From Xylanibacter ruminicola (lineage in GTDB: Bacteria > Bacteroidota > Bacteroidia > Bacteroidales > Bacteroidaceae), in the NCBI RefSeq assembly GCF_900142525.1, contig NZ_FRBD01000010.1, positions 1 to 64,000 of the forward strand: a DNA stretch of 64,000 nt. Direction: 5' to 3'. The number at the start of each line of letters is the position of its first letter. The first letter of the stretch is position 1. This document shows, in pieces, positions 34,799-63,712 of this stretch. The translations under genes were made by a program, and so were the position numbers. The notes under the pieces were generated by a model that worked only from the letters and a program-made list of their open reading frames with translations, did not search any database and was not told the DNA's origin.

Positions 34799-34863
34799 TT
34801 TCAGATTGTAAGCAAAATATGATTGTTTGCTTACAGATTGTTACTTTTAAAGAAAAAGTAGAT
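34799..34863 (+). promoter_or_regulatory. Shared regulatory element upstream of gltB (copy 1)
   Basis: CAGATTGTAAG at 34802 and CAGATTGTTAC at 34834, exactly 32 bp apart, sit within a perfect 10-bp inverted repeat TGTAAGCAAA/TTTGCTTACA (34807-34816, 34826-34835). The element ends AAAAAGTAGAT at 34863. Matching copies lie before glnN (41766-41827) and pyrG (60117-60178). The distance to the -7 box is 46 bp. This is a probable binding site for a shared nitrogen or glutamine regulator. Confidence 0.75.
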
Positions 34864-34904
34864 GAAAATGTCAGCAATCTCGCGCGTATGATGACAAAAT
34901 GATA

Positions 34905-34912
34905 TATCTTTG
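34905..34912 (+). promoter_or_regulatory. -7 box (TATCTTTG) for gltB
   Basis: TATCTTTGCACC, 30 nt before the gltB ATG. No TTTG is found at -33, which fits a promoter that needs an activator at the 34830-34863 element. Confidence 0.7.
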
Positions 34913-34941
34913 CACCAAAAATCTGACAAATAGTAAGATTA

Positions 34942-37900
34942 ATGAAGGATAATATGACAAAAAGAAAGCAAACTCAAACCCAAAAAGGACTCTATCAGAG
35001 CGACTATGAGCATGATGCTTGCGGCGTGGGAATGGTAGTGAACATTCACGGCGGAAAGAGTCACGATCTGGTAGACAATGCACTGAAAGTGCTGGAAAAC
35101 ATGGAACATCGCGGAGCTGAGACTCGCGACAAGACTGGCGATGGAGCCGGTATCATGGTACAGATTCCGCACGAGTTTATCCTGTTGCAGGGTATTCCTG
35201 TGCCTGAGAAGGGTAAGTACGGAACGGGACTGGTATTCCTGCCAAAAGACGAGAAAGCGCAGCAGGACATCCTCTCAGTAATGATTGAGGAGATTGAGCG
35301 CGAGGGTCTGACCCTGATGCACCTGCGCGCTGTGCCAACTAACCCTGAGGTGCTGGGTGCCGCAGCTCGCGAAGTTGAGCCCGACATCAAGCAGATTTTT
35401 GTTACTGGCATCGCCGACGAGCAGGTGCCCGTATTCGAGCGTATATTATATAAGGTACGCAAGCGTATAGAAAACCGTATCGACAACGAGGATTTTTATA
35501 TCTGCTCGCTGTCGAACAAGAATATCATCTACAAGGGAATGCTGACCAGCGGACAGCTGCGTCGCTATTTCCCTGACCTGAGCAACGATTACTTTACAAG
35601 TGGATTGGCGCTGGTACACTCGCGATTCTCGACCAACACCTTCCCAAAGTGGAAGTTGGCACAGCCTTTCCGCCTGTTGGCCCACAACGGAGAAATAAAT
35701 ACCATTCGTGGTAACCGCGGTTGGATGAAGGCTCGCGAGAGCGTGCTCTCAAGTGAAGCCTTAGGCGATATCAAGGACCTGCGCCCCATCGTACAAGAGG
35801 GTATGAGCGACTCTGCCAGCCTGGATAACGTGTTTGAGTTCCTGATGCTGAGCGGACTGAGTCTGCCACAGGCGATGGCTATTCTGGTGCCAGAAAGCTT
35901 CAACGACAAGAACCCCATCAGCGAGGACCTGAAGGCCTTCTACGAGTATCACTCTATCCTGATGGAGCCATGGGACGGTCCTGCAGCGCTGCTGTTCTCG
36001 GATGGTCGATATGCCGGCGGAATGCTGGACAGAAACGGACTGCGCCCCAGCCGCTATACCATCACCAAGGGTGGTATGATGGTAGTAGCCAGTGAGGTTG
36101 GCGTGATGGACTTTGAGCCAGGCGACGTGGTATCGAAAGGTCGTCTGCAGCCAGGAAAAATTCTGCTGATTGACACCCAGGAGGGTAAGATATACTACGA
36201 TGGCGAGATTAAGGAGCAGCTGGCTAAGGCCCATCCTTATCGCGAGTGGCTGAACGAGAACCGCGTGCAGCTGGAGAAGTTGAAGAGCGGTCGTAAGGTA
36301 GACAATGGTGTGGAAAATCTGAACGCTAAGCTGGTGCAGTTCGGCTTCGGTCAGGAGGATATCGATAAGACCATCATCCCTATGGCCACAGCAGGTCAGG
36401 AACCTGTGGCTGCTATGGGTAACGACACGCCGTTGGCTGTCATCTCAGATCGTCCACAGGTGCTGTTCAACTATTTCCGTCAGCAGTTCGCACAGGTCAC
36501 CAACCCTGCCATCGACCCTATCCGTGAGGAGCTGGTAATGAGCTTGACGGAGTACATCGGTGCCGTAGGAACCAACATCCTGACGCCTGATGCCAGCAAC
36601 TGTAAGATGGTTCGCCTGCCACAGCCTGTGCTCACCAACACCCAGCTCGACATACTTTGTAACATCCGCTATAAGGGCTTCAAGACAATAAAGCTGCCAA
36701 TGCTGTTCGAGATAGACCCCACCCCTAACCCCTCCCCTGAAAGGGGCGGGGAGAACCTGAGGGTGGCTATTGATCATTTGTGTCTGGACGCTGAGAAAGC
36801 CGTTGACGAGGGTGTGAACTACATCATCCTCTCTGACCGCGACATCGACGACAAGCATGCCGCCATCCCATCATTGTTGGCTGTAAGTGCCGTTCATCAC
36901 TATCTGATTAGCGTGGGTAAGCGCGTTCAGACAGCCCTGATAGTTGAGAGCGGTGAGATTCGCGAAACCATGCATGCAGCCCTGTTGTTGGGCTATGGTG
37001 CCAGCGCACTCTGTCCATACATGACATTCGCCATCCTCGACGACCTGGTGAAGCATCACAAGATTCAGGAGGAGTACGCTACTGCCGAGAAAAACTACAT
37101 CAAGGCTGTGGATAAGGGCCTGAAGAAGATTATGAGTAAGATGGGTATTAGTACCATCCGTTCATATCGTGGCGCTAAGATTTTCGAGAGCATCGGACTG
37201 AGCGAGGACCTGCTGAGAAGATACTTCGGTACTGAGGTGAGCACCATCGGTGGTGTAGGCCTGAAGGAGATTGCTCGCGATGCTATCCGTCTGCATGAGG
37301 AGGCCAAGCAGCAGACCATGCTGCAAAACCAGGGTCTCTTTGCTTGGCGCAAGGATGGTATCAAGCATGCTTGGAACCCTGAGACTATTGCACAGCTGCA
37401 GCTGGCTACCCGCCAGGGCAACTACGAGAAGTTCAAGCAGTGGTCGGCCATCGTCGACGAGAAGGAGAGCCCAATCTTCATCCGCGACTTCTTCAAGTTC
37501 AAGAAGGCTGCCAAGCCAACACCTATCGACGAGGTAGAGCCCGTTGAGAGCATCGTGAAGCACTTCGTAACAGGTGCCATGAGCTTCGGCGCTCTGAGCA
37601 TCGAGGCCCACGAGGCCCTGGCACTCGCCATGAACAAACTGGGTGCACGCAGTAATACTGGTGAGGGTGGTGAAGACAACGCCCGCTATCACTCAGAGGT
37701 GGATGGCGTGAGCCTTTCAAGTAAGACCAAGCAGATTGCCAGTGGACGTTTCGGCGTGACAGCCGAGTACCTGGTGAATGCCGAGGAGATACAGATTAAG
37801 GTGGCGCAGGGTGCTAAGCCTGGTGAGGGCGGACAGCTGCCTGGCTTCAAGGTCAACGAGATTATCGCCAAGACGCGTAACGCTATTCCTGGCATCTCGC

Positions 37901-39471
37901 TGATTTCACCTCCACCTCATCACGACATCTACAGTATCGAGGACCTGGCACAGCTCATCTTCGACCTGAAGAATATCAACCCTACAGCTGCCGTCAGCGT
38001 GAAGCTGGTAGCCGAGAGTGGCGTGGGAACCATCGCCGCTGGTGTGGCTAAGGCTAAGGCCGACCTCATCGTCATCTCTGGTGCCGAGGGTGGTACAGGT
38101 GCATCGCCTGCAAGCTCTATGCGCTTCGCAGGTATAAGTCCTGAGATTGGTCTCGCTGAGACTCAGCAGACGCTGGTGATCAACGGCCTGCGTAATCAGG
38201 TTCGCCTGCAGACCGACGGTCAGCTGAAGACTGCCAAGGACGTCATCATCATGGCCATGCTGGGAGCCGACGAGTTCTCGTTTGGTACGCTGCCCCTGAT
38301 TGTGCTGGGTTGCGTGATGATGCGTAAGTGTAACACCAATACCTGCCCCATGGGTGTGGCCACCCAGAACCCCGAGCTGCGCAAGCACTTCCAGGGTCGT
38401 TCGGAGTACGTGGTGAACTTCTTTACCTTCCTGGCCGAGCAGGTGCGCGAGTACTTGAGTGAAATCGGCGTGAAGAGCCTGAAGGAGATTATCGGTCACA
38501 CAGAACTCATCGAGGTTGATACTACCAACGCTACCGATAAGCAGAAGACCATCGACTTCGGTCGTCTGCTGCACAAGCCTGAGACAGAAAAGGCCCTCTA
38601 TTGGGATCGTGGCGCATTCACCAAGGTTACTGGCGTGAAGGACGAGGAGATTATCAAGGCTGCCGAGAAGGCTATCGAGAGTGGCGAGGAGATTACCCTC
38701 GACTACGCCATCAAGAATACAGACCGTGCCGTTACCACCATGCTCTCTGGTGTCATCGCCAAGAAATATGGCGAGGCTGGTCTGCCTGATAATACGATTA
38801 ACATCAAGTTCAAAGGCTCAGCCGGTCAGAGCTTTGGTGCCTTCGCCGTGAAGGGCGTCAACCTGAAGCTCGAGGGCGAGTGTAACGACTACTTCGGAAA
38901 GGGCCTCTCAGGCGGTCGCATCTCTATCCTGCCTCCAGCCCGAAGTGGTGAGGATTTCCATGCCGAGGACAACATCATCGCTGGTAACACCGGCCTCTAT
39001 GGTGCCACCTCTGGCGAACTCTATATCAATGGTAAGGTGGGCGAGCGCTTCGGCGTGCGCAACTCGGGTGCCATCGCTGTCATCGAAGGTGCTGGCGACC
39101 ACTGCTGCGAGTATATGACTGGCGGACGCGTGGTTGTGCTGGGCAAGACAGGGCGTAACTTCGCCGCTGGTATGAGTGGTGGTGTGGCCTACGTCTACGA
39201 CCCTGACCATACCTTCGACTACTTCTGCAACATGGATATGGTGGAGCTCTCGCTGGTCGAGGACAGCGTATCACGCAAGGAGTTGCTCGAACTCATCCGT
39301 CAGCACTACCTGCACACAGGCTCTGCCCTGGCAGGCCGCATGCTCGACGATTGGCAGCGCTACGTTCAGGACTTCATCCAGGTAGTCCCCATCGAGTACA
39401 AGCGCGTGCTGCAAGAGGAGCAGAATAAAAAGCTCCAGGAGAAGATCGCCAATATCCAGCGCGACTATTAA
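34942..39471 (+). CDS. gltB: Glutamate synthase, large subunit
   Basis: Transfers the amide of glutamine to 2-oxoglutarate to make two glutamates. The 1509-residue protein has all GltB domains: N-terminal Ntn amidotransferase with Cys27 as nucleophile after a short propeptide (HDACGVGMV), a central domain, the FMN-binding synthase domain (NTGEGGEDNARYHS, KPGEGGQLPG, SGAEGGTGASPASS), the iron-sulfur cysteines in CVMMRKCNTNTCPMG at about 1124-1138, and the beta-helix C-terminus (GGRVVVLGKTGRNFAAGMSG). About 14 residues at 593-606 (PTPNPSPERGGENL) come from a G/C palindrome inserted in frame. Followed by gltD after a 30-nt gap holding a TTCAATG repeat. Confidence 0.97.
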   Translation: MKDNMTKRKQTQTQKGLYQSDYEHDACGVGMVVNIHGGKSHDLVDNALKVLENMEHRGAETRDKTGDGAGIMVQIPHEFILLQGIPVPEKGKYGTGLVFLPKDEKAQQDILSVMIEEIEREGLTLMHLRAVPTNPEVLGAAAREVEPDIKQIFVTGIADEQVPVFERILYKVRKRIENRIDNEDFYICSLSNKNIIYKGMLTSGQLRRYFPDLSNDYFTSGLALVHSRFSTNTFPKWKLAQPFRLLAHNGEINTIRGNRGWMKARESVLSSEALGDIKDLRPIVQEGMSDSASLDNVFEFLMLSGLSLPQAMAILVPESFNDKNPISEDLKAFYEYHSILMEPWDGPAALLFSDGRYAGGMLDRNGLRPSRYTITKGGMMVVASEVGVMDFEPGDVVSKGRLQPGKILLIDTQEGKIYYDGEIKEQLAKAHPYREWLNENRVQLEKLKSGRKVDNGVENLNAKLVQFGFGQEDIDKTIIPMATAGQEPVAAMGNDTPLAVISDRPQVLFNYFRQQFAQVTNPAIDPIREELVMSLTEYIGAVGTNILTPDASNCKMVRLPQPVLTNTQLDILCNIRYKGFKTIKLPMLFEIDPTPNPSPERGGENLRVAIDHLCLDAEKAVDEGVNYIILSDRDIDDKHAAIPSLLAVSAVHHYLISVGKRVQTALIVESGEIRETMHAALLLGYGASALCPYMTFAILDDLVKHHKIQEEYATAEKNYIKAVDKGLKKIMSKMGISTIRSYRGAKIFESIGLSEDLLRRYFGTEVSTIGGVGLKEIARDAIRLHEEAKQQTMLQNQGLFAWRKDGIKHAWNPETIAQLQLATRQGNYEKFKQWSAIVDEKESPIFIRDFFKFKKAAKPTPIDEVEPVESIVKHFVTGAMSFGALSIEAHEALALAMNKLGARSNTGEGGEDNARYHSEVDGVSLSSKTKQIASGRFGVTAEYLVNAEEIQIKVAQGAKPGEGGQLPGFKVNEIIAKTRNAIPGISLISPPPHHDIYSIEDLAQLIFDLKNINPTAAVSVKLVAESGVGTIAAGVAKAKADLIVISGAEGGTGASPASSMRFAGISPEIGLAETQQTLVINGLRNQVRLQTDGQLKTAKDVIIMAMLGADEFSFGTLPLIVLGCVMMRKCNTNTCPMGVATQNPELRKHFQGRSEYVVNFFTFLAEQVREYLSEIGVKSLKEIIGHTELIEVDTTNATDKQKTIDFGRLLHKPETEKALYWDRGAFTKVTGVKDEEIIKAAEKAIESGEEITLDYAIKNTDRAVTTMLSGVIAKKYGEAGLPDNTINIKFKGSAGQSFGAFAVKGVNLKLEGECNDYFGKGLSGGRISILPPARSGEDFHAEDNIIAGNTGLYGATSGELYINGKVGERFGVRNSGAIAVIEGAGDHCCEYMTGGRVVVLGKTGRNFAAGMSGGVAYVYDPDHTFDYFCNMDMVELSLVEDSVSRKELLELIRQHYLHTGSALAGRMLDDWQRYVQDFIQVVPIEYKRVLQEEQNKKLQEKIANIQRDY
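36714..36756. repeat. G/C palindromic repeat inserted in frame in gltB
   Basis: CCCC-T-CCCCT at 36729-36738 pairs with AGGGG-C-GGGG at 36742-36751, loop GAA. It encodes PNPSPERGGEN, absent from other GltB proteins as far as I know. The same palindrome type is seen between genes at 11067 and 63737. Confidence 0.75.
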
Positions 39472-39501: not shown

Positions 39502-40869
39502 ATGGGAAATCCAAAAGCATTTTTAGAGATACACCGCCAGGAGGCGGGATACCGTCCGATTCACGATAGAATCCACGACTTTGGCGAGGTAGAGCAGACG
39601 CTCAGCACTCGCGAACGTAAACTGCAGGCATCGCGCTGTATGGACTGCGGCGTGCCCTTCTGCCATTGGGCATGTCCGTTGGGCAACAAAGCCCCTGAGT
39701 GGAACGATGCACTGTACAAAGGCGACTGGGAGTTGGCTTATCGCTTGCTCAACAGCACTAACCCCTTCCCAGAGTTCACTGGCCGCATCTGTCCCGCCTT
39801 GTGCGAGAAGGCCTGTGTGCTGAACCGTTTTAACCACGAGCCAACTACCAACCGTGAGGACGAGTGCGCCATCACAGAGATGGCCTTCCAGGAGGGATTT
39901 ATCACGCCCAAGACCGACATCCAGCGTAATGGCAAGAAGGTGGCAGTAATTGGTGCTGGTCCTGCTGGACTGGCTGCTGCCAACGACCTGAACCTGATGG
40001 GCTACAAGGTAACAGTATTCGAGAAGAACGAGGCTGCCGGCGGCTTGCTCCGCTATGGTATCCCCAACTTCAAGCTGAACAAGGCTATCATCGACCGCCG
40101 TATCAGCCTGCTTGAGGCCGAAGGCATAGAGTTCTGCTATGGCAATGCCATAGCCCTAGATGATCTAGCCGGGCTAGAAAAACTAGCCAGCGATTACGAT
40201 AGCGTCGTAATCGCCACTGGAACGCCAACGGCTAGAGACCTCAAGGCCCCCGGCCGAGAGCTGAAAGGTGTTCACTTCGCCCTCGAGATGCTGTCTCAGC
40301 AGAATCGTGTGCTGGCTGGTATGGAGTTCAGCAAAGACGAGCGCGTAACAGCCAAGGGCAAGGATGTGCTTGTGATTGGTGGTGGTGATACTGGTAGTGA
40401 CTGTATCGGTACTGCCCATCGTCAGGGTTGCAAGAGCGTCACTCAGATTGAGATTATGCCTAAGCCTGTAGAAGGTCCTGAGGACCCCCAGAACCCTTGG
40501 CCCAACTGGCCTCGCACCCTCAAGACCACCTCTTCGCATGAGGAGGGTTGCACCCGCCGTTGGAACATCAACACCTTGGAGTTCCTGGGTAAGGATGGCA
40601 AGCTGATAGGTGTAAAAGTTCAGGAGATTGACTGGAAGCCAAACCCAGAGGGTGGACGCCCCATCATGGTAGAGAAGGGTAAGCCCGAAATCATCAAGGC
40701 CGAGCTGGTTCTGTTGGCTATGGGTTTCCTCAAGCCTGAGCATCCTGAGTACCCCAAGAACGTCTTCGTCTGTGGCGACTCTGCCAATGGCGCCAGCCTC
40801 GTAGTTCGTGCCATGGCCTCAGGCAAGCAGACTGCTCAGAAAGTGAATAGCTATCTTGCTAATAAATAG
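39502..40869 (+). CDS. gltD: Glutamate synthase, small subunit
   Basis: Feeds electrons from NAD(P)H through FAD and iron-sulfur clusters to GltB. The 455-residue protein has the N-terminal cysteine sets CMDCGVPFCHWACPLGN (about 47-63) and CPALCEKAC (about 94-102) for two [4Fe-4S] clusters, the FAD site VIGAGPAGLAAA near 150, the NADPH site VIGGGDTGSDC near 295, and GDSANGASLVVRAMASG near the C-terminus closing the FAD site. Length normal for the bacterial beta subunit. A CTAG-dense stretch at 40157-40187 codes for LDDLAGLEKLA in a variable loop and looks unlike neighbouring codon use. Lies in one transcript with gltB. Confidence 0.97.
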   Translation: MGNPKAFLEIHRQEAGYRPIHDRIHDFGEVEQTLSTRERKLQASRCMDCGVPFCHWACPLGNKAPEWNDALYKGDWELAYRLLNSTNPFPEFTGRICPALCEKACVLNRFNHEPTTNREDECAITEMAFQEGFITPKTDIQRNGKKVAVIGAGPAGLAAANDLNLMGYKVTVFEKNEAAGGLLRYGIPNFKLNKAIIDRRISLLEAEGIEFCYGNAIALDDLAGLEKLASDYDSVVIATGTPTARDLKAPGRELKGVHFALEMLSQQNRVLAGMEFSKDERVTAKGKDVLVIGGGDTGSDCIGTAHRQGCKSVTQIEIMPKPVEGPEDPQNPWPNWPRTLKTTSSHEEGCTRRWNINTLEFLGKDGKLIGVKVQEIDWKPNPEGGRPIMVEKGKPEIIKAELVLLAMGFLKPEHPEYPKNVFVCGDSANGASLVVRAMASGKQTAQKVNSYLANK

Positions 40870-40896: not shown

Positions 40897-41745
40897 ATGA
40901 CAAAGATAAGGTTCACCAAGATGCACGGAGCTGGCAATGACTACATCTACGTCAATGCCATGCAATACCCCATCGACGACCCTGCTAAAGCATCTATCCT
41001 TTGGAGCGATCGCCATAAAGGCATCGGCTCCGATGGATTGGTGTTGATTGATAAATCGCCTGTTCCTGAGGCCGACTTCTCTATGCGCATCTTTAATGCC
41101 GATGGCAGCGAGGCCATGATGTGTGGCAATGCATCGCGATGCATAGGTAAATACCTCTACGAGCGCGGACTGACAGATAAGACAGAAATCCGCCTGCTCA
41201 CACTCTCAGGTGTTAAAATCCTGAACCTGCATGTGAGTGAGGGGTGTGTAGACTCCGTGACCGTTGATATGCTCGAACCAAAGCTAGAAGACGAAACCCA
41301 GTTTCTGGTTCATCATGGCATGGATAAAGGCACCTTTGTATCGATGGGCAATCCGCACTATGTGATATTTACAGATAATGTAGATCAGGTAGGCGAGACA
41401 GGGCGTATATTGGAACATCACCCAGCTTTCCCTCAGCGTTGCAACATTGAGTTTGCAACCCCCCTATCGTCCCCCGAGGGGGATACAAAAGCCTCCCCTC
41501 GGGGAGGTATGGAAGGGGTTTCTATCCGCACTCGCGTATGGGAGCGTGGTAGTGGTATCACCCAGGCTTGTGGCACTGGAGCGTGCGCTACTGCTGTGGC
41601 AGCTGCACTGACAGGTAAGGCTGGTCGCACATCGCAAATTGTGATGGATGGTGGCACGCTTACCATCGAATGGCGCGAAAGTGATAACCACGTCTATATG
41701 ACTGGTCCAGCGGAATTTGTGTTCGATGGAGAGATATTTTATTAA
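40897..41745 (+). CDS. dapF: Diaminopimelate epimerase, with in-frame repeat insertion
   Basis: Epimerises LL- to meso-diaminopimelate for lysine and peptidoglycan. The 282-residue protein has both catalytic cysteines: [12 protein letters not shown] (about 72) and [12 protein letters not shown] (about 225); the start [12 protein letters not shown] is diagnostic. A stretch at about 188-208 ([20 protein letters not shown]) interrupts the region between IEFAT and [10 protein letters not shown]. Other DapF proteins go straight across this point, so the insert comes from two G/C palindromes at 41471-41507. It should loop out of the fold without harming activity. dapL is at the right window edge, giving the diaminopimelate aminotransferase route. 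Confidence 0.95.
41458..41520. repeat. Double G/C palindrome inserted in frame in dapF
   Basis: CCCCCGAGGGGG at 41471-41482 and CCTCCCC/GGGGAGG at 41492-41507 are two hairpins in a 63-bp stretch (21 codons). The length is a multiple of three. Confidence 0.75.
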
Positions 41746-41765
41746 TAGATTCTCAATTTTAGTTT

Positions 41766-41827
41766 CAGATTGTAAGCAAACAACCTAACTTAACTTACAA
41801 ATTGTAACTTGTGAATAAAAAGTAGAT
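41766..41827 (+). promoter_or_regulatory. Shared regulatory element upstream of glnN (copy 2)
   Basis: CAGATTGTAAG at 41766 and CAAATTGTAAC at 41798, 32 bp apart; the 34-bp core is 41794-41827, ending AAAAAGTAGAT. The distance from core end to the TTTG of the -7 box is 47 bp (46 in gltB, 47 in pyrG). TGTAAG and CTTACA remain as an inverted pair. Confidence 0.75.
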
Positions 41828-41869
41828 AAATATTGCAGCTTAAAGTTGCGTTTTGCTTTCAAATTGTCG

Positions 41870-41877
41870 TATCTTTG
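41870..41877 (+). promoter_or_regulatory. -7 box (TATCTTTG) for glnN
   Basis: TATCTTTGCAG, 59 nt before the ATG at 41936. No -33 TTTG at the normal spacing. Confidence 0.7.
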
Positions 41878-41935
41878 CAGCGAAATCGTAACAAAGTGTA
41901 AGCAAATCGTATAACAAACATAAAAAAGATTGATT

Positions 41936-44149
41936 ATGGAAGCATTAAGATTTCAGGTTGTCGGCGAGGCTTTTAAGAAAAAGCCCCTCGATGTAAAAGC
42001 CCCAAGTGAGAGACCTTACGAGTATTTTGGTAAGAAGGTCTTCAATCGTGAGAAAATGTACAAGTACCTGCCAAAGGACGTTTACGAGAAGATGGTCGAT
42101 GTTATCGACAATGGATCACGTCTTGACAGAGCTGTAGCCGATGCAGTAGCCGCTGGCATGAAGCAGTGGGCTGTAGAGAATGGCGTTACTCACTATACTC
42201 ACTGGTTCCAGCCTCTGACAGAGGGAACAGCCGAGAAGCACGACTCATTTATTGAGCACGACGGCAAGGGTGGTATGGTAGAAGAGTTTACTGGCAAGCT
42301 GCTTGTTCAGCAGGAGCCTGATGCTTCTTCATTCCCTTCAGGTGGTATCCGTTCTACCTTCGAGGCTCGTGGTTACTCAGCCTGGGATCCAACATCTCCA
42401 GTTTTCATTATCGACGATACCCTTTGTATCCCCACTGTATTCATTAGTTATAGTGGTGAGGCACTCGACTATAAAGCTCCTTTGAAGCGCGCTCTGCATG
42501 CCGTAAACGTTGCTGCTACCGATGTTTGCCATTACTTTGATCCAGCAGTTAAGAAGGTACAGAGCAACCTTGGATGGGAGCAGGAGTACTTCCTGGTTGA
42601 CGAGGGTCTGTATGCTGCACGTCCTGACCTGCTGCTCACTGGTCGTACCCTGATGGGCCACGATTCTGCAAAGAACCAGCAGATGGACGACCACTACTTT
42701 GGAGCTATCCCTGAGCGTGTGGCTGCTTTTATGCGCGACCTTGAGATTCAGGCCCTGGAGCTGGGTGTTCCTTGTAAGACTCGCCACAATGAGGTGGCTC
42801 CTAACCAGTTTGAGCTGGCTCCTATCTTTGAGGAGACTAACCTGGCTGTCGACCACAACATGATGCTGATGAGTCTGATGAAGAAGGTGGCTCGTAAGCA
42901 CGGATTCCGCGTGCTGCTGCATGAGAAGCCATTCGCTGGCATCAACGGTTCTGGTAAGCACAACAACTGGTCACTCTCAACTGACAACGGCATCCTGCTG
43001 CACGCTCCTGGCAAGACTCCAGAGGCCAACCTGCGCTTCGCTACCTTCATCGTTGAGACACTGATGGGTGTTTACAAGCACAATGGATTGCTCAAGGCCT
43101 CTATCATGAGTGCTACCAACGCTCACCGTCTGGGCGCTAACGAGGCTCCCCCTGCCATCGTATCTTCATTCCTTGGCAAGCAGGTTAGCGAGTTGCTCGA
43201 CCACATCGAGACTGCCGATAAGGACTTCCTGGCTATGGCTGGCAAGCAGGGTCTGAAGATGGATATTCCTGAAATTCCTGAGCTCCTGATCGATAATACC
43301 GATCGTAACCGTACCTCTCCATTCGCCTTCACAGGTAACCGTTTCGAGTTCCGTGCTGTAGGTTCTGAGGCTAACTGCGCCAGCGCTATGATTGCCCTGA
43401 ACAGCGCCGTTGCTGAGGCTTTGGTTGACTTCAAGAAGCGTGTTGACGCTCGCATCCCTGAGTTTGAGAAGAAGCTGGCCGGCACTGAGCACAGCGCAAA
43501 GTTCCACGCTATCATCGACGTGCTGCGCGAGGACATCAAGACCTGTAAGCCCATCCGCTTCGATGGCAATGGCTACAGCGACGAGTGGGTTATCGAGGCC
43601 GAGAAGCGTGGTCTCGACGTAGAGAAGAGCTGTCCGAAGATCTTCGAGCGTTACCTCGACGATGCCAGCATCGCAATGTTCGAGAGCCTGGGCGTGATGA
43701 CCCAGAAGGAGCTCGAGGCTCGTAACGAGGTGAAGTGGGAGACCTACACCAAGAAGATTCAGATTGAGGCTCGCGTACTGGGCGACCTCTCAATGAACCA
43801 TATCATTCCAGTGGCTACCAGCTATCAGAGTCAGCTGCTGAAGAACGTTGAGAATATGGCTGCCGTATTCCCAGTCGACAAGGCCGAGAAGCTGAACGCT
43901 CGTAACATCAAGATTATCGAGGAGATTGCTGAGCGCACCTCTGCCATCGAGAAGGGTGTTGAGGAGCTGGTAAATGCTCGCAAGCTGGCTAACAAGATTG
44001 GCGGCGAGCACGACAAGGCCATCGCCTACCACGATACCGTAGAGCCAAAGCTCGACGAGATCCGTTATCAGATCGACAAGCTCGAACTGATTGTTGACGA
44101 TGCGCTGTGGCCACTGCCTAAGTACAGAGAGTTACTGTTCATCCGATAA
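41936..44149 (+). CDS. glnN: Glutamine synthetase type III
   Basis: Makes glutamine from glutamate, ammonia and ATP. The 737-residue length and the motifs mark the GSIII class first found in Bacteroides: RFQVVGEAF at the start, SSFPSGGIRSTFEARGYSAWDP, GWEQEYFLVD (metal-binding Glu), APNQFELAPIFEE, and NGSGKHNNWSL for the ammonium/ATP site. No adenylylation site of GSI type is expected. The ATG at 41936 is chosen over an in-frame TTG six bases earlier. It is preceded by the same element as gltB, so GS and GOGAT are likely controlled together. Ends with the terminator at 44195. Confidence 0.97.
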   Translation: MEALRFQVVGEAFKKKPLDVKAPSERPYEYFGKKVFNREKMYKYLPKDVYEKMVDVIDNGSRLDRAVADAVAAGMKQWAVENGVTHYTHWFQPLTEGTAEKHDSFIEHDGKGGMVEEFTGKLLVQQEPDASSFPSGGIRSTFEARGYSAWDPTSPVFIIDDTLCIPTVFISYSGEALDYKAPLKRALHAVNVAATDVCHYFDPAVKKVQSNLGWEQEYFLVDEGLYAARPDLLLTGRTLMGHDSAKNQQMDDHYFGAIPERVAAFMRDLEIQALELGVPCKTRHNEVAPNQFELAPIFEETNLAVDHNMMLMSLMKKVARKHGFRVLLHEKPFAGINGSGKHNNWSLSTDNGILLHAPGKTPEANLRFATFIVETLMGVYKHNGLLKASIMSATNAHRLGANEAPPAIVSSFLGKQVSELLDHIETADKDFLAMAGKQGLKMDIPEIPELLIDNTDRNRTSPFAFTGNRFEFRAVGSEANCASAMIALNSAVAEALVDFKKRVDARIPEFEKKLAGTEHSAKFHAIIDVLREDIKTCKPIRFDGNGYSDEWVIEAEKRGLDVEKSCPKIFERYLDDASIAMFESLGVMTQKELEARNEVKWETYTKKIQIEARVLGDLSMNHIIPVATSYQSQLLKNVENMAAVFPVDKAEKLNARNIKIIEEIAERTSAIEKGVEELVNARKLANKIGGEHDKAIAYHDTVEPKLDEIRYQIDKLELIVDDALWPLPKYRELLFIR

Positions 44150-60067: not shown

Positions 60068-60116
60068 CAGTTGGTTTTCCCTATAGTAATGTAATCTATT
60101 GCCGCTAATTATATTT

Positions 60117-60178
60117 CAATCTGAAAGCAAAACCATCAAGTTTACTTTCGGATTGTTATTTCAAGCGAAAAAGTAGAT
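60117..60178 (+). promoter_or_regulatory. Shared regulatory element upstream of pyrG (copy 3)
   Basis: The 34-bp core 60145-60178 matches the gltB and glnN cores at CTT-C--ATTGT-A-TT and AAAAAGTAGAT. A half-site CAATCTGAAAG at 60117 is exactly 32 bp before CGGATTGTTAT at 60149. The distance from core end to the TTTG of the -7 box is 47 bp. Confidence 0.7.
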
Positions 60179-60252: not shown

Positions 60253-61851
60253 ATGGAAAGAAAGTACATTTTCGTAACAGGCGGCGTGGTTTCTTCACTT
60301 GGAAAAGGAATCATCTCGGCCAGCATCGGCAAGTTGCTGCAAGCACGCGGCTACAAAGTAACAATACAGAAGTTTGACCCCTACATTAACATTGACCCAG
60401 GTACGCTGAACCCCTACGAGCACGGCGAGTGCTACGTGACGGAGGACGGCTTTGAAACCGACCTGGATCTGGGTCACTACGAGCGCTTTACAGGCATACA
60501 CACCACACGAAACAACTCAATAACAACCGGTCGCATCTATAAGACGGTGATAGATCGCGAGCGCCACGGCGACTACCTGGGAAAGACCATCCAGGTGGTG
60601 CCACACATCACCGACGAAATTAAGCGCCGCATGCTGCGCGAAGACGAACCCGAGGAGCAGCTGGACTTTGTGATTACAGAGGTGGGCGGCACCATAGGCG
60701 ACATAGAGAGTGCGCCGTTTATGGAGGCCATCCGACAGTTGCGCTGGCAGTTGGGCCGCAATGCAGTATGCGTACACCTGACGTACGTGCCCTATCTGAA
60801 GGCGGCCGACGAGCTGAAGACCAAGCCCACACAGCACAGCGTGAAAGAGCTGCAGGGCATGGGTATACAGCCCGACATACTGGTGCTGCGCACAGAGCGC
60901 CATCTGGACGACTCGATGCGCATGAAGGTTGCATCGTTCTGTAACGTCGACCTGGAGTGCGTGGTGCAGAGCGAGGATATGCCTAGCATCTACGAGGTGC
61001 CAGTGAGCATGCAGAAACAGGGACTCGACGCTGCCATCATGCGTAAGATAGGTATACCCGTAGGCGAGACACCTGCCATGAAGGGCTGGCACGACTTTCT
61101 GGCCAAGCAGCGCAATGCCACACGCGAGGTACACATCGGACTGGTAGGTAAGTACGACCTGCAGGATGCCTACAAGAGCATACGCGAGAGCCTGAACCTG
61201 GCTGGTATATATAATAATGTGAAGGCCAAGCTGCACTTTGTGAACAGCGAGGAGATAACCAAGCAGAAAGTGGCCGAGAAGCTGCAGGGTCTGCAGGGCA
61301 TCGTGGTTTGTCCTGGCTTTGGTCAGCGTGGTATCGAAGGTAAGATTATCGCAGCCGAATATACTCGCGAAAACGACATCCCCACCTTCGGCATCTGCTT
61401 AGGCATGCAGATGATGGTGATAGAATTCGCTCGCAACGTACTTGGCTATAAGGATGCCAACAGCAGCGAGATGGATGAGAAGACGCCTCACAACGTGATT
61501 GACATGATGGAGGAGCAGAAGAACATCACCCAGATGGGTGGTACCATGCGACTGGGCGCCTACGAGTGCGAGCTGCTGAAGGGTAGCCGCGTTTACGAGG
61601 CCTACGGCGAGGAGACGCTGATTAAGGAGCGCCATCGCCATCGCTACGAGTTCAACAACAAGTATCAGGAGGAGTTCGAGAAGAACGGTATGAAGTGCGT
61701 GGGTATCAACCCAGCCGCTAACCTGGTAGAAATAGTAGAGATACCTGAGAAGAAATGGTACATAGGAACCCAGTTCCACCCAGAGTACTCATCGACGGTA
61801 CTGAACCCACACCCACTGTTTATGAGCTTTGTAAAGGCTTGCGCCAAGTAA
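60253..61851 (+). CDS. pyrG: CTP synthase (glutamine hydrolysing)
   Basis: Makes CTP from UTP with glutamine as nitrogen donor. The 532-residue protein has an N-terminal synthase domain (KYIFVTGGVVSSLGKGI, the P-loop-like start; DPYINIDPGTLNPYEHGE) and a C-terminal class I amidotransferase domain with Cys in FGICLGMQMM (about 388) and His-Glu in QFHPEYSS (about 510). Complete, normal length. Codon use is that of a highly expressed gene. The start follows the promoter at 60221. As a glutamine user it shares the upstream element with gltB and glnN. It is followed by the PurF-type gene after a repeat-filled 31-nt gap. Confidence 0.97.
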   Translation: MERKYIFVTGGVVSSLGKGIISASIGKLLQARGYKVTIQKFDPYINIDPGTLNPYEHGECYVTEDGFETDLDLGHYERFTGIHTTRNNSITTGRIYKTVIDRERHGDYLGKTIQVVPHITDEIKRRMLREDEPEEQLDFVITEVGGTIGDIESAPFMEAIRQLRWQLGRNAVCVHLTYVPYLKAADELKTKPTQHSVKELQGMGIQPDILVLRTERHLDDSMRMKVASFCNVDLECVVQSEDMPSIYEVPVSMQKQGLDAAIMRKIGIPVGETPAMKGWHDFLAKQRNATREVHIGLVGKYDLQDAYKSIRESLNLAGIYNNVKAKLHFVNSEEITKQKVAEKLQGLQGIVVCPGFGQRGIEGKIIAAEYTRENDIPTFGICLGMQMMVIEFARNVLGYKDANSSEMDEKTPHNVIDMMEEQKNITQMGGTMRLGAYECELLKGSRVYEAYGEETLIKERHRHRYEFNNKYQEEFEKNGMKCVGINPAANLVEIVEIPEKKWYIGTQFHPEYSSTVLNPHPLFMSFVKACAK

Positions 61852-61882: not shown

Positions 61883-63712
61883 ATGGAACAGCTGAAGCAC
61901 GAATGCGGCGTGGCAATGATAAGATTGCTGAAGCCACTTGACTACTTCGAGAAGAAATACGGCACTTGGGCCTACGGTTTCAATAAGCTCTACCTGATGA
62001 TGGAGAAGCAGCACAACCGTGGACAGGAAGGCGCAGGACTTGCCACAGTATGCTTAAACAAGCAGCCTGGAACAGAGTACATGTTCCGTGAGAAGGCCGA
62101 GGGCAAGAACGCCATCACAGAAATCTTTTCGCGCGTGACGGAGGAGATGGCAGGCGAGCTCTATATGGGACACCTGCGCTACTCTACCACAGGCAAGAGT
62201 GGACTGACGTTTGTCCACCCATTCCTGCGCAGAAATAATTGGCGAGCCAAGAACCTGTGTCTGTGTGGAAACTTCAACATGACCAATATAGACGAAGTAT
62301 TCGATTTCCTCACAGCGCAGGGGCAATCGCCACGTATCTATGGCGACTCGTACATCACCCTGGAACTGATGGGACACCGCTTGGACCGCGAGGTGGAGCG
62401 CCTGTTTACAGAGGCCAAGGAGAAGGGACTGGAGGGCATAGACATCACCAACTATATAGACGATAATGTGGAGATGGCCAACGTGCTGAAGACCACCATG
62501 ATTCACTACGATGGCGGCTACGTGATGTGCGGACTGACCGGCTCGGGCGAGATGTTTGCCGTGCGCGACCCCTGGGGTATACGTCCGGCCTTCTTCTATC
62601 GCGACGAAGAGCTGATAGCGCTGGCCAGCGAACGCCCTGTGCTACAGACCACTTTCGATGTAGATCGCGACAAGGTGGTTGAGTTGAAGCCAGGTCAGGC
62701 ACTCATCGTACACAAGAACGGCGACATCAAATTGGAACAGATTCTTGGTGGAAACACGGCGCAGTCCAATGGTCCGCTCGGCTCTGCCGCTTCGCAAGGC
62801 GAAGAATGTTCAATGGTCAATGTTCAATATAAATATAGCGCTTGCTCGTTCGAGCGCATCTACTTCAGTCGTGGTTCTGATTGCGACATCTATCAGGAGC
62901 GCAAACGACTTGGAGAGCAGCTTACGCCTGCCATCATGAAAGCCATAGATGGCGATGTAGACCACACCGTATTCTCGTATATACCAAATACAGCCGAGGT
63001 GGCCTATTACGGCATGACCGATGGCGTGCGCAAACTGCATGGCGACGTGAGAACAGAAAAGGTGGTGTGGAAGGACATTAAGCTGCGCACCTTTATCTCA
63101 GCCAATACAGAGCGTAACGACCTGGCAGCCCACGTGTACGACATCAGCTACGGATCGCTGACGCCTAACGTGGATAACCTGGTGATTATCGACGACTCCA
63201 TCGTTCGAGGCACCACGCTGAAAGAGAGTATCTTTAAGATTCTGGACCGTCTGCACCCCAAGAGGATTGTGATGGTGAGCAGTTCGCCACAGATTCGCTA
63301 CCCTGACTACTATGGCATAGACATGGCCCGACTGGAGGAGTTCTGCGCCTTCCGTGCCACCATGGCGTTGATAGAGGAGCGAGGCATGTGGCAGCTGGTG
63401 AACGACACCTACCTGGCCTGCAAGCGTGAGCTGCAGAAACCCAAGGAGGAGATGGAGAACTGCGTGCGTGCAGTATATGCCCCATTCACAGTTGAAGAGA
63501 TAAACAATAAGATTGTAGAGATGTTGCGACCTGCTGACATGCAGGCACCTATAGAGCTCGTTTTCCAGAGCATTGAGGGCCTCCATGAGGCCTGCCCCAA
63601 CCATCCAGGCGACTGGTACTTTACTGGTCACTATCCAACCCCAGGCGGAAATCGCCTCGTTAACCAAGCTTTTATTAACTACATTGAGAGCAAGACTTCA
63701 GCTAATAAATAG
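61883..63712 (+). CDS. Amidophosphoribosyltransferase-like protein (long Bacteroidota PurF type)
   Basis: Forms phosphoribosylamine from PRPP and glutamine, the first step of purine synthesis. The 609-residue protein has an Ntn amidotransferase domain with Cys8 (LKHECGVAMIRL), RYSTTG, GNFNMTN, and a phosphoribosyltransferase domain with the PRPP loop VIIDDSIVRGTTL. It is longer than E. coli PurF (505) and the nucleophile Cys is preceded by seven residues. A stretch at about 291-321 (TAQSNGPLGSAASQGEECSM and on) is repeat-derived and breaks the normal sequence before CSFERIYFSRG. Many Bacteroidota have a second, standard PurF, so whether this is the main one is open. Confidence 0.85.
   Translation: MEQLKHECGVAMIRLLKPLDYFEKKYGTWAYGFNKLYLMMEKQHNRGQEGAGLATVCLNKQPGTEYMFREKAEGKNAITEIFSRVTEEMAGELYMGHLRYSTTGKSGLTFVHPFLRRNNWRAKNLCLCGNFNMTNIDEVFDFLTAQGQSPRIYGDSYITLELMGHRLDREVERLFTEAKEKGLEGIDITNYIDDNVEMANVLKTTMIHYDGGYVMCGLTGSGEMFAVRDPWGIRPAFFYRDEELIALASERPVLQTTFDVDRDKVVELKPGQALIVHKNGDIKLEQILGGNTAQSNGPLGSAASQGEECSMVNVQYKYSACSFERIYFSRGSDCDIYQERKRLGEQLTPAIMKAIDGDVDHTVFSYIPNTAEVAYYGMTDGVRKLHGDVRTEKVVWKDIKLRTFISANTERNDLAAHVYDISYGSLTPNVDNLVIIDDSIVRGTTLKESIFKILDRLHPKRIVMVSSSPQIRYPDYYGIDMARLEEFCAFRATMALIEERGMWQLVNDTYLACKRELQKPKEEMENCVRAVYAPFTVEEINNKIVEMLRPADMQAPIELVFQSIEGLHEACPNHPGDWYFTGHYPTPGGNRLVNQAFINYIESKTSANK
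62770..62830. repeat. In-frame repeat insertion in the PurF-type gene
   Basis: GGTCCGCTCGGCTCTGCCGC followed by TTCGCAAGGCGAAG and then AATGTTCAATGGTCAATGTT. The first part shares GGTCCGCTCG with the inverted repeat at 48944-48953; the last part is the TTCAATG repeat. Confidence 0.7.

Follow-up and report, generated by a model that had tools for sequence, protein, structure and literature searches.

Helically phased palindromes at ammonium-assimilation promoters of Xylanibacter ruminicola: candidate operator arrays of an AsnC/Lrp-family regulator

Palindromic boxes upstream of gltB, glnN and pyrG

The window, that is, the whole stretch of DNA analysed (the first 64,000 nt of a Xylanibacter ruminicola contig), contains the forward-strand genes gltB, gltD, dapF, glnN and pyrG, and short palindromic boxes precede gltB, glnN and pyrG (Table 1). 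The glnN product matches glutamine synthetase models with scores below their curated cut-offs. Between pyrG and dapL lies a gene for a 609-aa protein (61883–63712) that shows weak, sub-cut-off matches to glutamine amidotransferases and is PurF-like by eye; it is perhaps PRU_1973 of P. ruminicola 23.

Table 1. Boxes, promoter elements and genes of the gltB, glnN and pyrG regions, in window coordinates
Feature	Position	Strand	Remarks
gltB box 1	34799–34811, centre 34805	+	TTTCAGATTGTAA; lrpA matrix 14.2 bits; symmetric score 12.9
gltB box 2	34831–34843, centre 34837	+	TTACAGATTGTTA; 32 bp from box 1; 11.8 bits; symmetric score 11.9
gltB A-rich element	34853–34863	+	AAAAAGTAGAT; off-lattice; 18 bp from box 2; 46 bp before -7 TTTG
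gltB possible weak box 3	34861–34873, centre 34867	+	lattice position; score -2.4, only the region's 95th percentile; doubtful
gltB box 4	34892–34904, centre 34898	+	TGACAAAATGATA; just 5' of -7 element; 7.7 bits; symmetric score 8.3
gltB -7 element	34905–34912	+	TATCTTTG; by eye
gltB box 5, in leader	34924–34936, centre 34930	+	TGACAAATAGTAA; 11.8 bits
gltB box 6, over start codon	34955–34967, centre 34961	+	10.7 bits
gltB, glutamate synthase large subunit	34954–39471	+	NF008730, 1774 bits
gltD, glutamate synthase small subunit	39502–40869	+	TIGR01317
dapF, diaminopimelate epimerase	40897–41745	+	TIGR00652
glnN box 1	41763–41775, centre 41769	+	14.2 bits
glnN box 2	41795–41807, centre 41801	+	perfect palindrome TTACAAATTGTAA; 17.6 bits, the window's best
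glnN A-rich element	41817–41827	+	AAAAAGTAGAT; 47 bp before -7 TTTG
glnN box 4	41857–41869, centre 41863	+	TTTCAAATTGTCG; abuts -7 element; 7.8 bits; symmetric score 9.0
glnN -7 element	41870–41877	+	TATCTTTG; by eye
glnN box 5, in leader	41889–41901, centre 41895	+	11.3 bits
glnN, glutamine synthetase	41936–44149	+	GSIII-2 type by size and cluster context; genus orthologues; cluster as in PMC5552732
pyrG box 1	60114–60126, centre 60120	+	TTTCAATCTGAAA; 10.4 bits
pyrG box 2	60146–60158, centre 60152	+	TTTCGGATTGTTA; 32 bp from box 1; symmetric score 4.9
pyrG A-rich element	60168–60178	+	AAAAAGTAGAT; 47 bp before -7 TTTG (60225)
pyrG, CTP synthase	60253–61851	+	NF003792 / TIGR00337

The initial annotation had described one 34-bp element before gltB, glnN and pyrG, and its description was accurate in every coordinate and sequence: the cores at 34830–34863, 41794–41827 and 60145–60178 give a gap-free alignment, CAGATTGTAAG is the upstream half-site at gltB and at glnN and CAATCTGAAAG that at pyrG, and the 32-bp geometry recurs in the box centres (Table 1). 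From the end of the core to the TTTG of the -7 box (TTTG at 34909, 41874 and 60225) the distance is 46 bp at gltB and 47 bp at both glnN and pyrG. Promoters of Bacteroidota follow a -7/-33 consensus; read by eye against it, all three window promoters have -7 elements of this type and lack a -33 TTTG at normal spacing, as had been stated. The "perfect 10-bp inverted repeat" reported at gltB turned out to be the facing halves of two 13-bp boxes.

A search of the 3.96-Mb genome (63 contigs) with the pattern CTTWCRRATTGTWAYTTN6AAAAAGTAGAT, allowing up to three mismatches, returned three matches, all with 0 mismatches and all in the window; the reversed-pattern control, run on the same genome at the same tolerance, returned 0. 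The element shared by the three promoters is real and beyond chance. The literal 34-mer occurs in 2 of the 100 genomes searched, the home genome and genome G050, where pyrG has one match and the region separating glnK-amtB from a divergent ORF has the other, and it was therefore dropped as the conserved unit. Conserved in its place across the genus is a 13-bp palindrome, TTACAAWTTGTAA, whose copies stand on the same face of the helix. This palindrome replaces the 34-bp element as the unit of a phased array that, in the case of gltB and glnN, runs through the core promoter into the leader. Absence before orthologues, named by the initial annotation as a refutation, holds for the 34-mer and does not hold for the 13-bp box.

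The phasing of the boxes was evaluated in the upstream regions of gltB, glnK, glnN, pyrG, dapF and a second amtB (amtB2). Distances between boxes cluster at 31–32, 42–43, 62–64 and 73–74 bp, and the power at 10.5 bp, 13.7, exceeds the 99.9th percentile of the null, 2.6. A near-duplicate filter kept 333 of the 341 upstreams of these six genes; because it removed so little, the analysis was repeated per gene and on the home genome alone. The individual gene sets gave powers of 4.5–10.3 at 10.5 bp, and the pooled, mostly operonic controls gave 0.9 from only 26 pairs. Within the home genome, 18 of 19 pairs (scores of at least 8, 20–170 bp apart) depart by no more than 1.5 bp from a multiple of 31.3 bp, against 9.6% expected, and at a looser cut 26 of 36 pairs lie on this lattice. 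Among upstreams that have a strong box, those of glnN, gltB, glnK and pyrG fit a lattice period of 31–32 bp best; such a box is present in 17/77 glnN, 29/41 gltB, 26/39 glnK and 4/12 pyrG upstreams of the genus, counts that include some genes inside operons. Lattice point 3 is weak in all three promoters in which it was scored (34867, 41832, 65209), and at pyrG the further lattice points 60183, 60214 and 60246 are free of boxes, with scores of -6.2, -15.2 and -14.8.

Spacings of this kind are described for Lrp/AsnC regulators. In the Lrp family, the centres of neighbouring sites are separated by two or three helical turns (PMC2995911), and spacers of 15–17 bp are described for AsnC, FL11 and BarR (15-bp sites in BarR) and of 27–29 bp for E. 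coli Lrp and Ah-BarR (PMC10201364). With 15-bp sites, these spacers amount to 30–32 and 42–44 bp between centres and therefore match both of the shortest main peaks. The boxes thus sit on one face of the helix at the Lrp/AsnC-family distances of 31–32 and 42–43 bp.

Two further features accompany the arrays. The A-rich element (AAAAAGTAGAT in the window, AAAACGAAGAT at dapL) lies off the lattice in four promoters of the home genome, 18 bp from box 2 and 46–47 bp from the -7 element, and may be a contact for the polymerase alpha subunit, a bend or the site of a second protein. Furthermore, a box covers the gltB start codon in 30 of 70 gltB upstreams, compared with 19 of 280 control windows, and the N-terminus of GltB may accordingly be shaped by DNA binding through this overlap with its first codons. 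A leader box at -28 to -20 is present in 10/70 gltB upstreams and 19/280 control windows, the latter being fixed windows that include leader positions possibly holding real boxes.

Distribution of the box in the genome and the genus

To score boxes we used a 15-column matrix built from the -7-anchored sites of all 30 fetched leaders of lrpA, an Lrp/AsnC-family gene, good and bad alike, with no nitrogen gene included. Averaged over both strands, the 13-bp consensus is TTACAAATTGTAA, a palindrome of dimer size with an AT-rich centre, and the unaveraged lrpA sites read alike. By eye, many of the listed glnN, gltB and pyrG upstreams (30 fetched for each gene) contain repeated boxes close to TTACAAAWTGTNAG. 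In the window, the matrix reaches 12 bits only at 34805, 41769 and 41801; at 10 bits or more there are 17 sites, 8 of them outside the gltB, glnN and pyrG promoters.

Boxes of 7 bits are enriched at particular genes. The mean per upstream is 3.3 for gltB and 3.5 for glnK against 1.1 in shuffles (70 and 49 sequences), and 2.4, 1.7, 1.6 and 1.2 for amtB2, pyrG, dapF and glnN against 0.8, 0.6, 0.7 and 0.4. The values are 0.8 against 0.3 for gltD, and 0.2–0.4 against 0.2 for amtB, asnB, dapL, omp and gatase. Rates were also compared at 10 bits over 80 named loci, which had been fetched for holding glnN and come from related species, so that their promoters are non-independent samples. The 79 promoter regions of gltB, glnN, glnK, pyrG and amtB2 contain 110 matches in 25.6 kb (4.3/kb), 163 unlabelled promoters contain 15 (0.31/kb), and 1.34 Mb of coding DNA contain 122 (0.09/kb). 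Promoters of dapF (n=13) reach 5.1/kb, although they are not independent since dapF can face glnK (for example at locus L153); gltD (n=6) reaches 1.9/kb, and seven amtB and four asnB promoters together 0.9/kb. No match at 10 bits was found in the dapL (n=13) and omp (n=4) regions of these loci, so dapL looks like a member in the home genome only. Convergent gaps (n=48) gave 0.70/kb, a class in which some gaps are mislabelled: the ORF caller placed at least two glnK promoters (L142 and L166, by eye) there and thus outside the promoter count.

Further sites in the home genome were sought with a model built from sequence alone, using seven sites of which three came from the window, two from G050 and two from other glnN promoters. 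Of 1765 first-look candidates, 150 were scored and others may be missed, the model also fixing one spacing; it returned 22 matches, nine of which, at six places, have E <=0.05. The gltB, glnN and pyrG sites, matched on both strands, are training sites. The other three places, where genes were named from translations without a family search, are C38:65120-65184, just beyond the window between dapL and glnK-amtB-OMP-asnB (E 7e-10); C35:101972-102025 (L123), the trpB promoter, a weak element match (E 0.005); and C26:100680-100730, the promoter of the second amtB (E 0.05). Among the matches annotated, those at these six places, none is at gdhA, glnA or carAB. A fixed two-box pattern was too strict and gave one irrelevant match in the home genome.

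At trpB, the element stands upstream of a short Trp-rich leader ORF containing three consecutive Trp codons, an arrangement that resembles a trp attenuator. The second amtB-like gene (C26:100598-100890, L124) has a perfect TTACAAATTGTAA box in its promoter and, at a distance of 32 bp, a weaker one. In the dapL promoter the geometry of the window returns, with boxes 31 bp apart and the core ending 46 bp from the -7 TTTG. Box centres scoring at least 4.5 are 34690 (off lattice), 34773, 34805, 34837, 34898, 34930 and 34961 at gltB; 41769, 41801, 41863 and 41895 at glnN; 60120 and 60152 at pyrG; 65137, 65147, 65178, 65304 and 65346 at dapL/glnK; and 100726, 100751 (off lattice), 100758 and 100851 at amtB2. 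The weaker glnK lattice points 65240 and 65272 score 2.2 and 2.9.

These data bear on the "glutamine regulon" of the initial annotation. Its idea of a shared cis-element marking nitrogen genes stands, as the best independent genome matches include the dapL/glnK-amtB-OMP-asnB region and the second amtB; of the additional genes it had proposed for a genome scan, glnK, amtB and asnB were recovered as one cluster, and gdhA and carAB were not at E <=0.05. The name itself is loose, the members being mainly genes for ammonium uptake and assimilation plus pyrG, with dapL in the home genome.

The elements precede gltB, glnN and glnK-amtB-asnB, whose counterparts are induced by ammonium limitation in P. 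ruminicola 23 (PMC5552732). According to the results text of that paper, nitrogen genes rose 26–69-fold under limiting ammonium: amtB 69-fold, PRU_1977 58, glnK 46, asnB 38, the GSIII-2 gene glnN 35, two GOGAT genes 33 and 27, and gdhA 2.2 (PMC5552732). We took the direction of induction from this text, as the figure legend and the sentence on the PCA name non-limiting ammonium (PMC5552732). Its list of changed genes includes pyrG, dapF and gdhA/glnA, and its clusters resemble those of the window, except that pyrG is said to be scattered (PMC5552732). The words promoter, motif, transcription factor, Lrp and NtrC do not occur in the main text of the paper.

Among genus genomes of at least 85% completeness, glnN is present in 116/120, gltB in 88/120 and pyrG in 116/120. 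Of seven named isolates inspected, X. ruminicola D31d and X. brevis ATCC 19188 carry the array at both glnN and gltB. In P. aff. ruminicola Tc2-24 it occurs at glnK and is lacking at glnN and gltB, and in the other four it is partial, at glnK, or hardly present. At D31d glnN the boxes persist as palindromes and the spacer differs from that of the window. Outside the genus, 10 of 29 gltB upstreams contain any box of at least 8 and three contain two. Few boxes were found in the glnK upstreams of 30 genomes of the order (the home genome included); several of the eight inspected start just after another ORF, and glnK seems to be operonic there. A genome of another family encodes a glnK (G244:C39:24726-25070, L305) whose product is 95% identical to the home protein, probably through recent transfer or contamination of the assembly.

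LrpA as the candidate regulator

The home genome has three Lrp/AsnC genes. One of them, lrpA (C26:150535-151011, 159 aa), carries TGACAAAATGTAACC directly after its -7 TTTTGC. Its product has an AsnC helix-turn-helix and a RAM domain (PF13404, PF13412 and PF01037, all above cut-offs), and its best PDB match is E. coli AsnC (2cg4, E 6e-26).

Of 50 lrpA leaders from the genus, 34 (22/30 by leave-one-out and 12/20 independent) have a box abutting the -7 element and 16 do not. The corresponding counts are 0/20 for the paralogue lrpB and 0/29 for lrpA relatives of other genera and families, in an anchored test that requires a TTTGC following the -7, a sequence missing from many lrpB leaders. An unanchored box in the last 130 nt was found in 12/20 lrpA leaders, 4/20 lrpB leaders and 8/29 relatives outside the genus. 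In the order, glnK and lrpA co-occur (26/30 vs 42/90, p 1e-4; uncorrected for phylogeny, with identity cut-offs set and the table typed by hand), a result that is given no weight in the case for LrpA.

These observations make LrpA a probable binder of the arrays. The case for it is circumstantial and is strengthened by the array spacings, which equal those of its family; the leader comparison covered lrpA and lrpB, and LrpA was picked on a prior Lrp hypothesis. The role of LrpA may be wider, since lrpA is found in 119/120 genus genomes and gltB in 88/120. In the remaining 32 of these 120 genomes gltB was not found.

Several known systems resemble the arrays in part. At gltBDF, E. coli Lrp activates, and likewise represents Lrp-family control of glutamate synthase through multiple sites, whereas its consensus is another one, its effector is leucine and its sites lie far upstream. 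Bacillus GlnR and TnrA belong to the MerR family and recognize TGTNA-type half-sites at gln and glt promoters; their operator, TGTNA-N7-TNACA, is not matched by the box, in which the half-sites of TNACAAWTTGTNA stand in the opposite order. E. coli AsnC differs as a local regulator of asnA, not of ammonium assimilation. Its likeness lies in being the closest PDB sequence to LrpA and in a 15–17-bp site spacing (PMC10201364). BarR of Acidianus and Sulfolobus binds regularly spaced semipalindromic sites such as TTGTACTTTTTACAA, with spacers of 15–17 and 27–29 bp, wraps DNA round an octamer and acts as a dual repressor/activator, but it responds to beta-alanine and is described at one divergent operon, not a nitrogen regulon (PMC10201364). 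Sa-Lrp of Sulfolobus acidocaldarius, a member of the Lrp/AsnC family like LrpA, binds the control regions of its own gene as well as those of gltB, gdhA and glnA, is glutamine-responsive and is turned octameric by glutamine; it is archaeal, however, and the description drawn on here mentions no 31-bp palindromic array (PMC3584215).

Proposed promoter wrapping and alternative explanations

We propose, with a probability of about 0.7, that the elements are operator arrays of an AsnC/Lrp-family regulator whose octamer would wrap the ammonium-assimilation promoters. Each 13-bp palindrome would be the site of one dimer, with two (pyrG) to six (gltB) per promoter. The units are observed on one DNA face, in most cases three turns (about 31 bp) apart, and the main pair starts about 105 bp before the -7; beyond the -7 the arrays of gltB and glnN enter the leader, and that of gltB also covers the start codon. 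The dimers of one octamer would each occupy one box, so that promoter DNA wraps round the protein, and LrpA bound to the box abutting the -7 of lrpA would shut off its own gene. The predicted regulon comprises gltBD-dapF, glnN, glnK-amtB-OMP-asnB, the second amtB and pyrG, with dapL sharing the glnK region in the home genome. When nitrogen is plentiful, LrpA with an amino-acid signal would keep the array in a closed wrap; under ammonium shortage, the wrap would be altered or released and the promoters would fire. Our guess for the signal, by analogy, is glutamine or asparagine, the former because Sa-Lrp uses glutamine (PMC3584215) and the latter because AsnC is the best PDB match of LrpA.

A closed wrap in nitrogen excess is favoured because boxes at gltB and glnN cover the leader as well as the -7 region, and repression is, in our judgement, slightly the better reading of the arrays. 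LrpA may instead activate, with boxes 1 and 2 forming an upstream nucleoprotein complex that recruits RNA polymerase under nitrogen limitation. Room for this is left by the absence of -33 elements, by the home pyrG promoter with its two boxes, by the constant 46–47 bp that separate the A-rich element and the -7 in four home promoters, and by the behaviour of Ah-BarR, which represses its own gene and activates its neighbour (PMC10201364). Lattice boxes at the -7 and in the leader (gltB, glnN) and on the start codon (gltB) speak against activation, which we regard as a serious contender at a little under even odds. The activator dependence asserted by the initial annotation is accordingly not retained, boxes at these positions fitting repression equally, and the regulator, which it thought could be new, need not be of an unknown type, since box, spacing and the presence of a site at the regulator's own promoter point to the Lrp/AsnC family.

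The box matrix alone names no protein, and palindromes are bound by other families too, so another dimeric regulator of Crp/Fnr, MarR or LysR type might bind the same arrays and also control lrpA; the leader comparison comprised lrpA and lrpB, and the four lrpB leaders with a box carry it at 10 bits or more. We consider this unlikely, given that the two distances within the arrays are, after conversion to centres, the two Lrp/AsnC spacings and that the box abuts the -7 of lrpA and not that of its paralogue. Far less probable is the single 34-bp site for one new activator proposed initially: the 34-mer does recur in the home genome with fixed geometry, but it is missing from 98 of 100 genomes, whereas the 13-bp boxes, and with them the phasing, are seen repeatedly within the genus, and the spacer between the boxes of D31d glnN differs. 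Control at the RNA level by a riboswitch or leader structure could draw on the single leader box at gltB and at glnN; with the strongest boxes 5' of the -7, boxes phased with the DNA helix and zero Rfam matches in the 64-kb window at gathering thresholds, we give it hardly any weight.

If LrpA wraps these promoters, Prevotella-type bacteria would have an AsnC-family master nitrogen regulator in the role of NtrC, GlnR or NtcA, acting on a three-turn lattice with up to six dimer sites, reaching from around -100 into the coding sequence in the case of gltB and combining the 31- and 42-bp family spacings in one regulon. We hold this wider reading to be evenly balanced between true and false; the presence of two boxes only at the home pyrG promoter lowers its odds. 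Phased Lrp/AsnC operators are already known. What appears new within the literature searched is their proposed employment by these Bacteroidota as a nitrogen switch, together with how far the array extends; no regulator or operator for these genes was found in the partial set of titles and abstract openings covered. Prevotella and its kin are dominant bacteria of rumen and gut. For their ammonium assimilation, the arrays give a named candidate, an operator and a regulon, and, if the proposal is true, they would offer a natural multi-species series of helically phased Lrp/AsnC operators for studying wrapping in transcription control.
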